NCBI RefSeq assembly: GCF_026625805.1
Contig: NZ_CP113064.1
Coordinates: forward strand, 248,001-312,000
Length of the DNA: 64,000 nt
Source of the DNA: Brevundimonas sp. SL130
GTDB taxonomy: Bacteria > Pseudomonadota > Alphaproteobacteria > Caulobacterales > Caulobacteraceae
Reading direction: 5' to 3'
Part shown: positions 22,928 through 29,763 of the stretch, one piece after another
Layout of the letters: every line of letters starts with the position of its first letter
How positions within the stretch are numbered: position 1 is the stretch's first letter
Notes under the pieces: generated by a model
What the model was told of the DNA's origin: nothing
What the model saw: the letters and a program-made list of their open reading frames with translations, nothing else
Databases searched by the model: none
Position numbers and translations under genes: made by a program

Positions 22928-24665
<1,738 letters not shown>

Positions 24666-24768: not shown

Positions 24769-26916
24769 TCAGGCCTGCGCCATTTCCGGCGCCGTCGCCC
24801 GAGTGCCGGGCCTCTGTTCCACCAGCCCGCCGTCTTGGACGACCAGCAACCGATCCGCGCGCCTCAACAATGCCGGCCGATGGGCGACGACGATGCGGGT
24901 GATCGGCAGCTGCGCAATCAGATCGGCGATGATTTCCTCGGTCGAGACGTCAAGATTGGCAGTGCCTTCGTCTAGGATCAGGATGCGCGGTTGGCGATAC
25001 AGCGCTCGCGCCAGCAGGACACGCTGCTTCTGCCCGCCTGACAGGGTCGAGCCCATGTCGCCGACGAGGGACAGATATTGCATCGGCATCCGCACAATGT
25101 CCTCGTGCACCTGAGCGGCATAGGCGGCTTGCTGGACACGGACCATATCGAGGTCGGGATCGAAGAAGGCGATATTGTCGGCGATGGTGCCCGACAGCAG
25201 CCGGTCGTCCTGAGCCACCACCCCGACCTGCTCGCGCCAGGCCCGCCAGAGATCGGGCGTCGCCGTCTGTCCGTCCAAAGTGATGGCGCCGCCGGTGGGA
25301 TGGCGCAGGCCCAGCATCAGCTTCAACAGGGTCGTCTTGCCCCCACCGGACGCGCCGGTAATGGCCAGGAACTCCCCCGGTCGGACCTCCAGATTGAGGC
25401 CTTGCAGAATTGCGCGGTCGGCGGCGCCGTAGCGGAAGTCGATGTCCCGCAGACTCATGGCGCCGCGGACATCCAGGCGCGGCGGGGCGGCGGCCGAAGA
25501 GGTCTCCACTTCGGCGATCACGATGTCTGACAGCCGCTCCAGATGCAGGTTCAGGAAACGGAACTGTATCGCTTGATTGATCAAGGCGTTGGCCCGATCC
25601 GTGAAGGTCTGGCGGAATGACAGGAAGGCGAACAGCATCCCGACCGAGAACCCATCGCCTGCCAAAATCGTTCGTGCGCCCAGATAGATGACGATCACCG
25701 TCTGTAGCCCTGTCACCAGCCCTTGGGTGAAGGTCAGGGAGATCTGGAACTTGCCGACAGAGACGGCGGCGTTGATTGCATTGGCGTAGAGATTGCGCCA
25801 CGAACTCTCGCGTTCGGCCTCGCGGCCCATGATCTTGATCGTGGTCGCGGCGCGCACGGTCTCCATGATGTGGGACTGCTCGCGGGCGCTTTCGACGATC
25901 TGTTCTTCGGTGCGGGCCCTCATGGCCGGGAACAGAGCGAAGGCGAGACCCAGGTTGATCGCCACTGCTCCGACCACGACCGCCGTCAAGGTCGGCGAAT
26001 ACAGCAACAGGATGACGATTGCGACGACCGCCATTAGTCCGTCGATAAGGGCCGCGATTACCCCGCGCGTCAGCACGTCCTGGATTGCCGAGGCCGAGCC
26101 GATGCGCGAGAGGATGTCTCCTACATGGCGCTTCTCGAACCAGTCGCTGGGCAGGCGGATCATGTGCCGTACCAGATTGCCGACCATCTGGAAGCTGAGC
26201 ATCTGACCGAACACCTGAAGCGCCCAGGCGCGCAAGGCCTCGATCGTGACCTGGACGACGACCAGGGCGCCGAAGCCGATGGCCAGCACGGTCAACAGGT
26301 CGCGGTCCGACCGCATAATGCCTTCGTCCACCACCAATTGCATCTGGAACGGCATGGCGAAGGCCGCGACCTGCAACGCCAATGACAGGCCGAGAATCTG
26401 GAAAAACGCGGGCCAGAATCCGACCATCCTGGACCACAGGCTGGTCAGCTTGATCGGCGCGCGCGCCGTAACCTTTTCGAAGGTGGCCGACGGCGTCAGC
26501 TCAAGCACTACGCCGGTGAAATGGTTCGACAGATCGGCGATAGCATAGGTCCGCGCGCCGAGGGCTGGGTCGTGGACCACAGCCTTGGTTCCGGACACCG
26601 ACTTCAGCACCACGAAATGATTCAGATCCCAGTGCAGGATGGCCGGCAGCCGCACCTTGTTGAGCGCCGACAGCTCGACTTTCAGGGCCCGCGGCGCGAA
26701 CCCCAGACTGTCGGCGAACCCCATGATGCTGCGCAAGGTCGCGCCCGACATCGACAGGGTGAACCGCTGGCGCAGACCGTTCAGATCGACGTCATGGCCG
26801 TGATAGCGGGCCACCATGGCCATACAGGCCAGGCCGCATTCGGCCGCCTCGGCTCCCTGAATGATGGGCAGGCGTCGGCGACGGGCGAAGTTTAGTTCCG
26901 CTGGAATCTTCATCAT
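24769..26916 (-). CDS. C39-peptidase ABC exporter for double-glycine-leader peptides
   Basis: This is a 715-aa three-part transporter. Residues 1 to about 135 form a C39 cysteine peptidase with Q20, catalytic C27 (AAECGLACMAM), H100 (DLNHFVVLK) and D116 (VHDPALG), all present. About six membrane helices span residues 150-430. The ATPase follows with Walker A GASGGGKTTLL, signature LSGGQKQRV and Walker B ILILDEGTANLD. Such enzymes cut the leader after a GG motif while exporting the peptide. ATG 26916 overlaps the stop of the adaptor gene (ATGATGA), so they are one operon. The peptides encoded divergently from 28279 are the evident cargo. Composition resembles CdzA of Caulobacter; orthology is untested. 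Confidence 0.92.
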   Translation of the reverse strand: MMKIPAELNFARRRRLPIIQGAEAAECGLACMAMVARYHGHDVDLNGLRQRFTLSMSGATLRSIMGFADSLGFAPRALKVELSALNKVRLPAILHWDLNHFVVLKSVSGTKAVVHDPALGARTYAIADLSNHFTGVVLELTPSATFEKVTARAPIKLTSLWSRMVGFWPAFFQILGLSLALQVAAFAMPFQMQLVVDEGIMRSDRDLLTVLAIGFGALVVVQVTIEALRAWALQVFGQMLSFQMVGNLVRHMIRLPSDWFEKRHVGDILSRIGSASAIQDVLTRGVIAALIDGLMAVVAIVILLLYSPTLTAVVVGAVAINLGLAFALFPAMRARTEEQIVESAREQSHIMETVRAATTIKIMGREAERESSWRNLYANAINAAVSVGKFQISLTFTQGLVTGLQTVIVIYLGARTILAGDGFSVGMLFAFLSFRQTFTDRANALINQAIQFRFLNLHLERLSDIVIAEVETSSAAAPPRLDVRGAMSLRDIDFRYGAADRAILQGLNLEVRPGEFLAITGASGGGKTTLLKLMLGLRHPTGGAITLDGQTATPDLWRAWREQVGVVAQDDRLLSGTIADNIAFFDPDLDMVRVQQAAYAAQVHEDIVRMPMQYLSLVGDMGSTLSGGQKQRVLLARALYRQPRILILDEGTANLDVSTEEIIADLIAQLPITRIVVAHRPALLRRADRLLVVQDGGLVEQRPGTRATAPEMAQA

Positions 26917-28154
26917 CGGCGTCCGGCGGCGTAGAGGGGGTCCAGCAACCATTCCAACAGCGTACGGCGGTCGATGACGACGTCCGCGCTCAACAGCATT
27001 CCGGGTTGCAGCGGCAGGGCCTGGCCATAGGCCTCGACGCTGTCTCGGGCTAGCTTGACCCGCACGCGGAACACCGGCTCCTGGACCTGCAGTCCAGGAA
27101 TGGCGATCTCGGTCGGGGCCAGGACGGTGCGCGAGACCGAGGTTACTACGCCCTGTCCGGTACCGAATTTCTGATGGGGAAAGGCCTGGTAAAGCAGCCG
27201 GACCTCCTGACCCGCTTTGACGAACCCGGCCGCCCGTGACGGGGCGTAGAGTTCGGCCTCCAAGGCTGAGTCCCCGGCGGTCAGCACCGCCACGGCGGCG
27301 CCCGGCGCCACGGTCTGGCCCGCATCCACCGGCAGGGCCGCGACCCGCCCCGCCACAGTGGCGACGACGACATAGCGGCCTTGCGCCTCAGCCTGGGTCG
27401 CCTGCTGGTCCAGACCCGCGTGGGTCGAGGCGGCCTCGGCGCGAGCGGCCTGAATATCGATTGGAATGGCGGCCAGACGCGCGTCCACCTCGCCGATCTG
27501 CCGCTCATAGCTCAAGGCCTGTGACGACAGGGTCGAGGCCTCCTGCTGTACGGACAACTCGGCGGATCGACGGGCTTCCAGTTCGCGGCGGGGCAGGAAC
27601 CCTTGCGCGGCGATGGTCTCTGCGCGGTTCACCTCGGCGCGGGCCAGCGTCAGGCGCTCCGCCTGAAGCGCGATGTTGCGCCGGGTCTCTGCCAGTTCGC
27701 GGCCCAAGGCGGCGCGGCGCTCGGTCAACTGGCGATGCTCGGCCGCGAGCGCGGCTTGGGCGGCGGCGGCGCGCGATCCGGCTGCCGCGCCCTGCGCGTC
27801 CAAGCTGCGCGCCAAAGCTTCGAAACTGTCGCCGCCCTCCAGGGCCGAGGACAACGTCAAGGTTGCAATGGGTTGCCCGACGACGACACGGTCGCCCTCG
27901 CGCACGTAGACGTTGGAGACGATCCCGCCCTGCCGCGCGGCCAGTCGGATCATCCCGGCCTGGGGTGTCAACCAGCCGACGACCGTCTCCTTGCGAGCAT
28001 AGGAGGCGGTGGCTGCAAACGTCGCGCTGCCTAACATCACGGCAAACATCAGCCCTGCGAGGACGCGGGATGACACGGAGGAGGCCAATATCACCTCGCC
28101 TGCGAGGCGTCGGGTGGCATGAGTAATAGCTTCCTTACGAAACAAATCTGACAT
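26913..28154 (-). CDS. HlyD-family periplasmic adaptor of the peptide exporter
   Basis: This 413-aa protein has a short cytoplasmic N-terminus (MSDLFRKEAITHATRRLAGE), one membrane helix (residues 27-50), a biotinyl-lipoyl-like half domain, a long alpha-helical hairpin (residues 125-260) and the second barrel half near VVATVAGRVAALPVDAGQ. It joins the inner-membrane ABC exporter to an outer-membrane TolC-type channel, which is not encoded here. It is the first gene of the minus-strand operon, divergent from the small peptide genes 124 bp away. Confidence 0.9.
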   Translation of the reverse strand: MSDLFRKEAITHATRRLAGEVILASSVSSRVLAGLMFAVMLGSATFAATASYARKETVVGWLTPQAGMIRLAARQGGIVSNVYVREGDRVVVGQPIATLTLSSALEGGDSFEALARSLDAQGAAAGSRAAAAQAALAAEHRQLTERRAALGRELAETRRNIALQAERLTLARAEVNRAETIAAQGFLPRRELEARRSAELSVQQEASTLSSQALSYERQIGEVDARLAAIPIDIQAARAEAASTHAGLDQQATQAEAQGRYVVVATVAGRVAALPVDAGQTVAPGAAVAVLTAGDSALEAELYAPSRAAGFVKAGQEVRLLYQAFPHQKFGTGQGVVTSVSRTVLAPTEIAIPGLQVQEPVFRVRVKLARDSVEAYGQALPLQPGMLLSADVVIDRRTLLEWLLDPLYAAGRR

Positions 28155-28278: not shown

Positions 28279-28464
28279 ATGTCGGCTGTAGATATGGACG
28301 TACGTGAGCTTACGGACAGCGACATTGACGAAGTAAATGGGGGGGCTGCATTAGCCATTGTCGCCGCCGTTGCTATAATAGTTGTTGTCGTAGTTGCTGT
28401 TGCCTATGTCGGATATCAAGATGGCCATCGAGATGGCTACGAAAGTAATAGAGACAAGAAATAG
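28279..28464 (+). CDS. Double-glycine-leader secreted peptide 1 (bacteriocin-like)
   Basis: This is a 61-aa precursor. Residues 1-22 end in ELTDSDIDEVNGG, a textbook C39 leader with cleavage after GG. The mature 39 residues are a hydrophobic helix (AALAIVAAVAIIVVVVVAVAY) followed by a polar tail GYQDGHRDGYESNRDKK that has GxxxGxxxG spacing. That combination, a membrane-inserting helix with glycine-zipper periodicity, resembles the Cdz peptides of Caulobacter and class II bacteriocins. AGGAGG stands 5 nt before ATG 28279. Codon use is AT-rich compared with the rest of the window, which suggests horizontal origin. Toxicity is inferred, not shown. Confidence 0.82.
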   Translation: MSAVDMDVRELTDSDIDEVNGGAALAIVAAVAIIVVVVVAVAYVGYQDGHRDGYESNRDKK

Positions 28465-28496: not shown

Positions 28497-28676
28497 ATGA
28501 ACACGTTACAGCAAGTCTCTTTTAATTACGTATTCAAGTTTGCATCTATATTGTCTATTGCTGTGGCGTTAGTATATGCTGGCTTTTACAAAGCAGGATA
28601 TCAGTCCGGAAAAGACAAAGCTCTGCAAGACAATGCGCAAATCTCAAAGGATTATATTGATGAACGAGTCAATTAA
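28497..28676 (+). CDS. Leaderless 59-aa membrane peptide, candidate immunity protein
   Basis: This small gene starts at ATG 28497 and stops at TAA 28674-28676. The product has a polar start (MNTLQQVSFNYVFK), a membrane helix (FASILSIAVALVYAGFY) and a tail KAGYQSGKDKALQDNAQISK. The tail is strikingly like the tails of its neighbours (GYQDGHRDG and GYEAGKDQALRDN), so it is a real paralogous gene, yet it has no GG leader and should stay in the inner membrane. A small membrane protein between two exported peptides is where an immunity protein is expected. It overlaps the next gene's start by 17 bp in another frame, implying coupled translation. There is no strong ribosome-binding site. Confidence 0.65.
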   Translation: MNTLQQVSFNYVFKFASILSIAVALVYAGFYKAGYQSGKDKALQDNAQISKDYIDERVN

Positions 28677-28860
28677 ACTCAACATCGAAGGTCTCCGCCT
28701 CCTTAATGAGGGCGAGATCGAAGAGGTAAATGGCTGTACTGTAGCCGCATCTGCTGGTCTGGTTCTAAGTTTGGCAGCCGTTTATGCGGTATTCCGACAA
28801 ATCGGATATGAGGCGGGTAAAGACCAAGCCTTGCGAGACAATAGAGCGGATGACAAATAG
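28660..28860 (+). CDS. Secreted peptide 3 with atypical leader (NGC instead of NGG)
   Basis: This is a 66-aa precursor starting at ATG 28660, 8 nt after AAAGGA. The leader region LRLLNEGEIEEVNG matches the C39 leader consensus (compare DSDIDEVNG in peptide 1), but the next residue is Cys rather than Gly. A membrane helix follows (TVAASAGLVLSLAAVYAVF), then the tail IGYEAGKDQALRDNRADDK with GxxxG. The frame is open further upstream (to 28576), but that part overlaps the 59-aa gene and has no leader character. It may be processed less efficiently or differently from peptide 1. It belongs to the same AT-rich operon. Confidence 0.72.
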   Translation: MNESIKLNIEGLRLLNEGEIEEVNGCTVAASAGLVLSLAAVYAVFRQIGYEAGKDQALRDNRADDK

Positions 28861-29002: not shown

Positions 29003-29119
29003 ATGCGTGAAATGACTGCCGCCGAAGTAGGTGCCGTAGCCGGAGGGACGAGCTTCATCGTTCTTCCGTTGGTGGTGATCCTTATCCCCACTTCCCATCA
29101 GCCCGAACGAAGCTCCTGA
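29003..29119 (+). CDS. Double-glycine-leader peptide 4 (38 aa)
   Basis: The product begins MREMTAAEVGAVAGG, a compact and canonical C39 leader ending in GG. A 23-residue mature peptide follows: a short hydrophobic core (TSFIVLPLVVILIP) and a polar end (TSHQPERSS). GGAGGA lies 6 nt before ATG 29003. Unlike the other peptides it lacks the GYxxG tail, so it is not a close paralogue. A strong terminator follows 32 bp later. It is a likely second kind of cargo for the exporter: toxin partner or signal peptide. Confidence 0.65.
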   Translation: MREMTAAEVGAVAGGTSFIVLPLVVILIPTSHQPERSS

Positions 29120-29189: not shown

Positions 29190-29232
29190 GATTGATGGCG
29201 CTGCCCTCTTCGTCGACCATCGAGGTCAATGA

Positions 29233-29705
<473 letters not shown>

Positions 29706-29734
29706 CCACTCCAGCTCAGGCTGAAAATGCAGAA

Positions 29735-29763
29735 GGGCGGGACCGCAAGGTCCCGCCCTTTTT
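29735..29763 (+). terminator. Terminator of the duplicated groL end
   Basis: The stem GGGCGGGACC / GGTCCCGCCC with loop GCAA is followed by five T. It is the near-identical counterpart of the 24720 terminator and shows that the duplication extends past the stop codon. Confidence 0.92.

Follow-up and report, generated by a model that had tools for sequence, protein, structure and literature searches.

A leaderless single-helix protein encoded between two leadered peptides as a candidate immunity protein of a Cdz-like bacteriocin cassette in Brevundimonas sp. SL130

Results of our analysis of a 64,000-nucleotide stretch of the Brevundimonas sp. SL130 genome (contig NZ_CP113064.1, positions 248,001 to 312,000; hereafter the window) suggest that the small protein P2, encoded between the genes of two leadered peptides, P1 and P3, provides the immunity of a Cdz-like or class II microcin-like bacteriocin cassette and does so as an unexported mimic of the toxin, located in the inner membrane, a reading to which we assign a probability of roughly 0.6. 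As far as sequence comparisons allow us to judge, P2 likely confers immunity and P1 and P3 are its putative toxins, while mimicry is the mechanism that we infer. P2 is the sole leaderless ORF within the peptide operon. The components of the cassette, together with the corresponding modules of three other genomes, are listed in Table 1.

Table 1. Features of the window cassette (window positions) and related modules (positions within their own loci)
Feature	Coordinates	Strand	Remarks
Full-length groEL	23020-24663		
C39-peptidase ABC exporter, CdzA-like	24769..26952	-	GG-type leader removal
HlyD-type adaptor, CdzB-like	26913..28154	-	divergent from peptide genes
P1, 61-aa peptide	28279..28464	+	VNGG leader (...IDEVNGG); NCBIfam TIGR03949 match
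P2, 59-aa leaderless single-helix protein	28497..28676	+	candidate immunity gene; ATG 28497, stop 28676
P2 tail motif	28596..28634	+	GYQSGKDKALQDN, residues 34-46
AAAGGA, Shine-Dalgarno-like site for P3	28646..28651	+	within the end of P2; from sequence
P3, 66-aa peptide	28660..28860	+	VNGC leader (...IEEVNGC); mature part is the nearest toxin-like relative of P2
P3 tail motif	28804..28842	+	GYEAGKDQALRDN
P4, 38-aa fourth leadered peptide	29003..29119	+	MREMTAAEVGAVAGG/TSFIV...; profile of P3 relatives, E 0.0015
groEL 3'-end duplicate bounding the cassette	29220..29705 (29220-29763 as a cassette boundary)	+	94.5% over 487 bp
Brevundimonas module (L071)	7598/7806/about 8005		51-aa one-helix leaderless protein between two peptides
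Paracoccus module (L147)	39/287/444		leaderless frame overlaps next start by 11 bp
Rhodobacter xinxiangensis module (L151)	4114/4343/4497		frames without overlap

An earlier note on this DNA had pointed to P2 as an overlooked gene, and the frame can be regarded as a real gene securely because of homology and not because of its length. In shuffles of the AT-rich stretch of P2 that preserved dinucleotides approximately, a plus-strand ATG ORF of at least 59 aa arose in 26% of cases, so that length alone is weak evidence for a gene; one with an equally hydrophobic helix arose in 1.75%. A profile built solely from leaderless relatives encoded in other genomes (six sequences, none of them from the window) found P2 (E 5.8e-8) and P3 (E 5.5e-8) among the 589 ORFs of the window, the next best E-value being 0.86. 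Relatives of P2 emerged only from whole-genome searches and profiles, and none were detected by a scan of genome contigs with the single P2 sequence or by tblastn in plasmids. P2 and its cassette relatives gave no meaningful match to any Pfam or NCBIfam model.

The translation of P2, MNTLQQVSFNYVFKFASILSIAVALVYAGFYKAGYQSGKDKALQDNAQISKDYIDERVN, contains a hydrophobic segment that begins at about residue 12 (Kyte-Doolittle 17-mer mean 2.07), and its AlphaFold2 model comprises one helix only (residues 3-58, pLDDT 88.7), in agreement with the membrane helix that had been ascribed to it. A GG-type leader motif is absent from P2, as had also been claimed, as well as from the in-frame codons 5' of its ATG. 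In the tail motif, G34, Y35, G38, D40, and A42 are invariant in the family alignment. The earlier description of this tail as common to both flanking peptides proved to be correct, although to different degrees: the similarity is strong in the case of mature P3 (Smith-Waterman z ~15) and weaker in the case of P1 (z ~8), with none of the 5000 shuffles as good in either comparison. That P2 and P3 are clear paralogues across 28 residues would also be expected if P2 were a decaying duplicate of P3 that had lost its leader, but we consider this highly improbable, as intact leaderless frames, each with its own N-terminus, occupy the same slot in five cassettes and the family appears to be under purifying selection. 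Moreover, the leaderless proteins continue for 11-20 residues beyond the motif, compared with only 1-5 in the matching toxins, and with this C-terminal extension they are not plain leader deletions of toxins.

The relative divergence of synonymous and non-synonymous sites had been named beforehand as a pattern that might speak against the gene; it did not, since synonymous sites diverge faster than non-synonymous ones. For the tails of P2 and P3 we obtained pS of 0.66 and pN of 0.29 (Fisher p 0.005), ratios that are rough since the synonymous sites of this pair are near saturation, and for the leaderless solitary genes L005 and L007, pS of 0.80 and pN of 0.23 (p 2e-9). A synonymous excess was also found in the L147 pair (p 0.018) and for two leaderless genes compared across cassettes (p 0.0005); it is borderline in the L232 pair (p 0.045) and not significant in the L151 pair. 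Apparent purifying selection on the P2 family is counted by us in favour of the immunity reading.

The genes of P1 and P2 are separated by 32 bases, and P2 overlaps the start of P3 by 17 bp (28660-28676), exactly as reported before; P3 starts with the ATG at 28660, not at 28576 as in the mechanical ORF list. The overlap, together with the location of the Shine-Dalgarno-like site of P3 inside P2, is what one would see if P2 served mainly as a translational coupling frame with an irrelevant product. Such a role is hardly credible to us, given the conservation at the protein level, which includes the non-overlapping gene of L151 and the stand-alone copies.

Five cassettes have the gene order leadered - leaderless - leadered, namely those of the window, Brevundimonas (L071), Paracoccus (L147), Rhodobacter xinxiangensis (L151), and Paracoccus (L232), the last of which was found by profile search on another contig of a second Paracoccus genome. 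In a scan of exporter loci, in which leaderless hydrophobic ORFs beside leadered peptides were ranked by similarity to their neighbour, the Rhodobacterales loci L147 (z 15.9) and L151 (z 10.7) were both near the top, z of at least 6 being seen in 1.1% of non-cognate pairs. Both have the tail motif GYxxGxDxA, as in the window. In the Janthinobacterium cassette L212 the order is different, as the leaderless gene follows the two peptides. In all six cassettes (these five and L212), the leaderless protein scored best against its own partner toxin, and the sum for cognate pairing was reached by only one of the 720 permutations, the observed one, a figure that is optimistic since L147 and L151 had been found via cognate similarity and the L212 partner had been taken to be whichever of the two peptides scored higher. 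Toxin similarity played no part in how the gene order, L232, or L071 was identified; L071 represents the weakest cognate match, with 4 of 5000 shuffles as good.

The expectation that relatives with the flanking peptides always carry the leaderless gene was largely confirmed. Of five cassettes with a GYxxGxDxA-tailed leadered peptide, four have a leaderless partner, always between two leadered peptides, but the Phenylobacterium cassette (L105/L141) has a P3-like peptide and an intact exporter with no leaderless gene next to the leadered peptides of L105, locally, or elsewhere in the 93% complete genome. Its immunity may come from another source, or else its toxin pair may be inactive. The existence of this pair without a P2-like gene would also fit the possibility that P2 remains in the envelope of the producer in a structural or accessory role, for instance, as a surface anchor for exported P1 and P3 or an export helper. 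The interaction face that P2 has in common with P3 and the retention of CdzC and CdzD on the cell (PMC5380434) are consistent with such a function, which we nevertheless consider unlikely, because leaderless relatives of P2 occur in genomes without a C39 exporter match or toxin genes, where there is nothing for them to serve.

These relatives, leaderless proteins with the P2-type tail, are encoded in nine other Brevundimonas genomes and include proteins of 50 aa (L005 and L007) and 46 aa (L016), a further one at L009, a weaker match in genome G111, and longer two-helix relatives near purK-like genes (L003, L004, L006, and L008). No match to the C39 exporter was found at E 1e-10 in eight of the nine genomes, and no leadered peptides were recognised in the eight regions inspected around the solitary genes. 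At E <1e-5, the tail family is present in 10 of 131 genomes, the window genome included. This patchy presence combined with conserved sequence and no exporter fits orphan immunity genes. Small membrane-active peptides also frequently consist of a single hydrophobic helix and a charged tail, and the orphan copies do stand alone, so that P2 could be imagined as an independent leaderless toxin or stress peptide, with immunity given by the leadered peptides or another gene. We hold this to be quite improbable: purifying selection appears to maintain the solitary genes, next to which we noticed neither an antitoxin nor an immunity gene, and the gene order and toxin matching of the cassettes are better explained by immunity.

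Tandem two-helix proteins with the GxxxGxDxAxRDN tail adjoin purK-like genes of a few Brevundimonas genomes, at L087 (5698-5961 and 5964-6215) and likewise at L003, L006, and L008, and no bacteriocin genes were recognised near them. A housekeeping role of the GYxxGxDxALRDN tail, which such neighbours might imply, is countered by its patchy presence.

The whole cassette of the window is enclosed by groEL and a copy of the groEL 3'-end, and the G+C content of its peptide region is 46%, compared with 67% for the window. No integrase was seen in the cassette. Other cassettes lie between duplicated 3'-ends of other housekeeping genes: copies of lepA in L071 (2246-4090 and 8856-9656) and L070 (1-262 and 5097-5446), and of tRNA-Arg in L105 (2565-2641 and 7184-7260). 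In both L071 and L070, a scrap of groEL adjoins that of lepA, as if it were a relic of a former landing site. A second exporter with adaptor is present in the window genome (L072, G000:C1:1546000-1558000), its C39 part being 79% identical, and no leadered peptide was recognised beside it.

At 89-93% identity, the N-terminus of the exporter recurs in two further Brevundimonas genomes, in a strain of Caulobacter vibrioides, and in genomes resembling Phenylobacterium. The near identity of the exporter next to peptide genes that are different each time points to a cassette that spreads horizontally while its toxin module is exchanged. In relatives of this cassette, whose transporter is 86-91% identical, other leaderless membrane genes occupy the place of P2, such as that of a 79-aa protein after the leadered peptides of L106 and that of a 304-aa protein beside those of L104, which we take to resemble a CPBP protease. 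A frame of 385 aa beside the single leadered peptide of L070 (3862-5019) has the appearance of a retropepsin-like aspartic protease that ends in a PDZ-like part. At two other Brevundimonas exporter loci, radical SAM-like frames adjoin the leadered peptides (L075, 2398-3642, and L077, 8532-9764), which suggests that these peptides may be modified.

The layout of the window cassette resembles that of the Caulobacter crescentus Cdz system (CdzA, CdzB, CdzC, CdzD, and CdzI; PMC5380434): a C39 ABC exporter and HlyD protein are encoded divergently from leadered peptides with a hydrophobic segment and a charged C-terminus, and a small leaderless membrane protein adjoins them. Cdz-like systems are defined by two divergent operons, exporter and peptides, like those of the window, and by peptides of 60-151 residues with a leader ending in G[G/A/S]; P1 has 61 residues and GG, P3 has 66 and ends its leader with NGC instead of GG, and P4, which has a hydrophobic core of 23 residues and may be the third peptide that the cassette exports, has 38. 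The extended hydrophobic glycine zipper of Cdz is absent from P1 and P3, as GxxxGxxxG of P1 is located in the charged tail (GYQDGHRDG) and P3 has only GYEAG, and hence we call the cassette Cdz-like in layout and do not regard it as a proven Cdz system. The immunity protein CdzI resides in the inner membrane, is required for producers to survive, and is described as having three predicted helices and no homologues (PMC5380434), while P2 has one helix, is encoded between the two peptides, and is similar to one of these.

A leadered peptide, a C39 exporter, an HlyD protein, and an adjacent small membrane ORF, such as Cvi of the microcin V type, are also characteristic of class II microcins (PMC10233263). 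Their immunity proteins are encoded adjacently, are small (51-216 aa) and membrane-spanning, and often overlap the toxin ORF (PMC10233263), a description that P2 fits with its length, overlap, and helix. In contrast to the statement that these proteins are not locatable by conserved sequence features (PMC10233263), P2 is homologous to its own toxin. An unexported form of yeast killer toxin K1 reportedly protects its producer (PMC7021474); the parallel is conceptual only, since the proteins are unrelated and the K1 protector is a precursor, unlike P2, which is encoded by a separate gene. Within an incomplete collection of literature, our searches turned up no immunity protein with described homology to the peptide toxin that it counteracts.

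With respect to class IIb bacteriocins of the lactobin A / cerein 7B family (TIGR03949), P1 (29.7 bits) and the Phenylobacterium P3-like peptide exceed the curated cutoff of 21.5 bits, in contrast to P3 and P2, which do not match. Gram-positive class IIb immunity proteins usually have several helices.

If P2 is the immunity protein, the divergently encoded C39 ABC exporter would, together with its HlyD adaptor, cut off the leaders of P1, P3, and perhaps P4 and export the peptides, while P2, whose helix and GYxxGxDxA tail are those of mature P3 and which has no leader, should remain in the inner membrane of the producer. There, it could form pairs with toxin molecules, whether incoming or mislocalised, via the common GxxxG face of the tail, which is plausible from the sequences, and block pore assembly; alternatively, it could fill the docking site of the toxin in the membrane. 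Translation of P3 would be coupled to that of P2 by the overlap, so that the toxin should not be produced without P2.

With the tail profile, the window genome alone was matched among 385 Alphaproteobacteria, and in a set of 394 genomes around Rhodobacter xinxiangensis the sole convincing match was in the genome of this species itself, with no leadered peptide or motif ORF adjoining the weaker matches. A search of viral contigs with P3 gave no match. No leaderless mimic is present in the Rhizobiaceae plasmid cassettes annotated as 'Blp family class II bacteriocin' or in further cassettes on plasmids, which indicates that the pattern is not universal, nor was a mimic found in many other exporter cassettes. 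The larger leaderless neighbours at L142, L143, L171, and L184 do not resemble their toxins, and mimicry is therefore not general.

Somewhat tentatively, we propose that immunity genes of this kind arose as leaderless copies of toxins, or the toxins by gain of a leader on a membrane protein, that they keep matching their own diverging toxins, and that solitary copies spread as a defence against toxins of neighbours, which would set them apart as a class of bacteriocin immunity of their own. In class II microcins and Cdz-like systems, the search for immunity genes is difficult owing to their lack of common sequence features (PMC10233263, PMC5380434), and the flank scan of the Cdz study covered ORFs of 60-200 residues (PMC5380434), so that genes like P2 fell outside it. 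If immunity is indeed conferred by a leaderless relative of the toxin, such genes would become searchable by comparison of toxins with their neighbours, including the frames of under 60 residues that are dropped by pipelines. The same relationship would offer a simple, testable model of how immunity to membrane toxins originates and co-evolves, and a candidate explanation for the solitary small membrane proteins of Brevundimonas.
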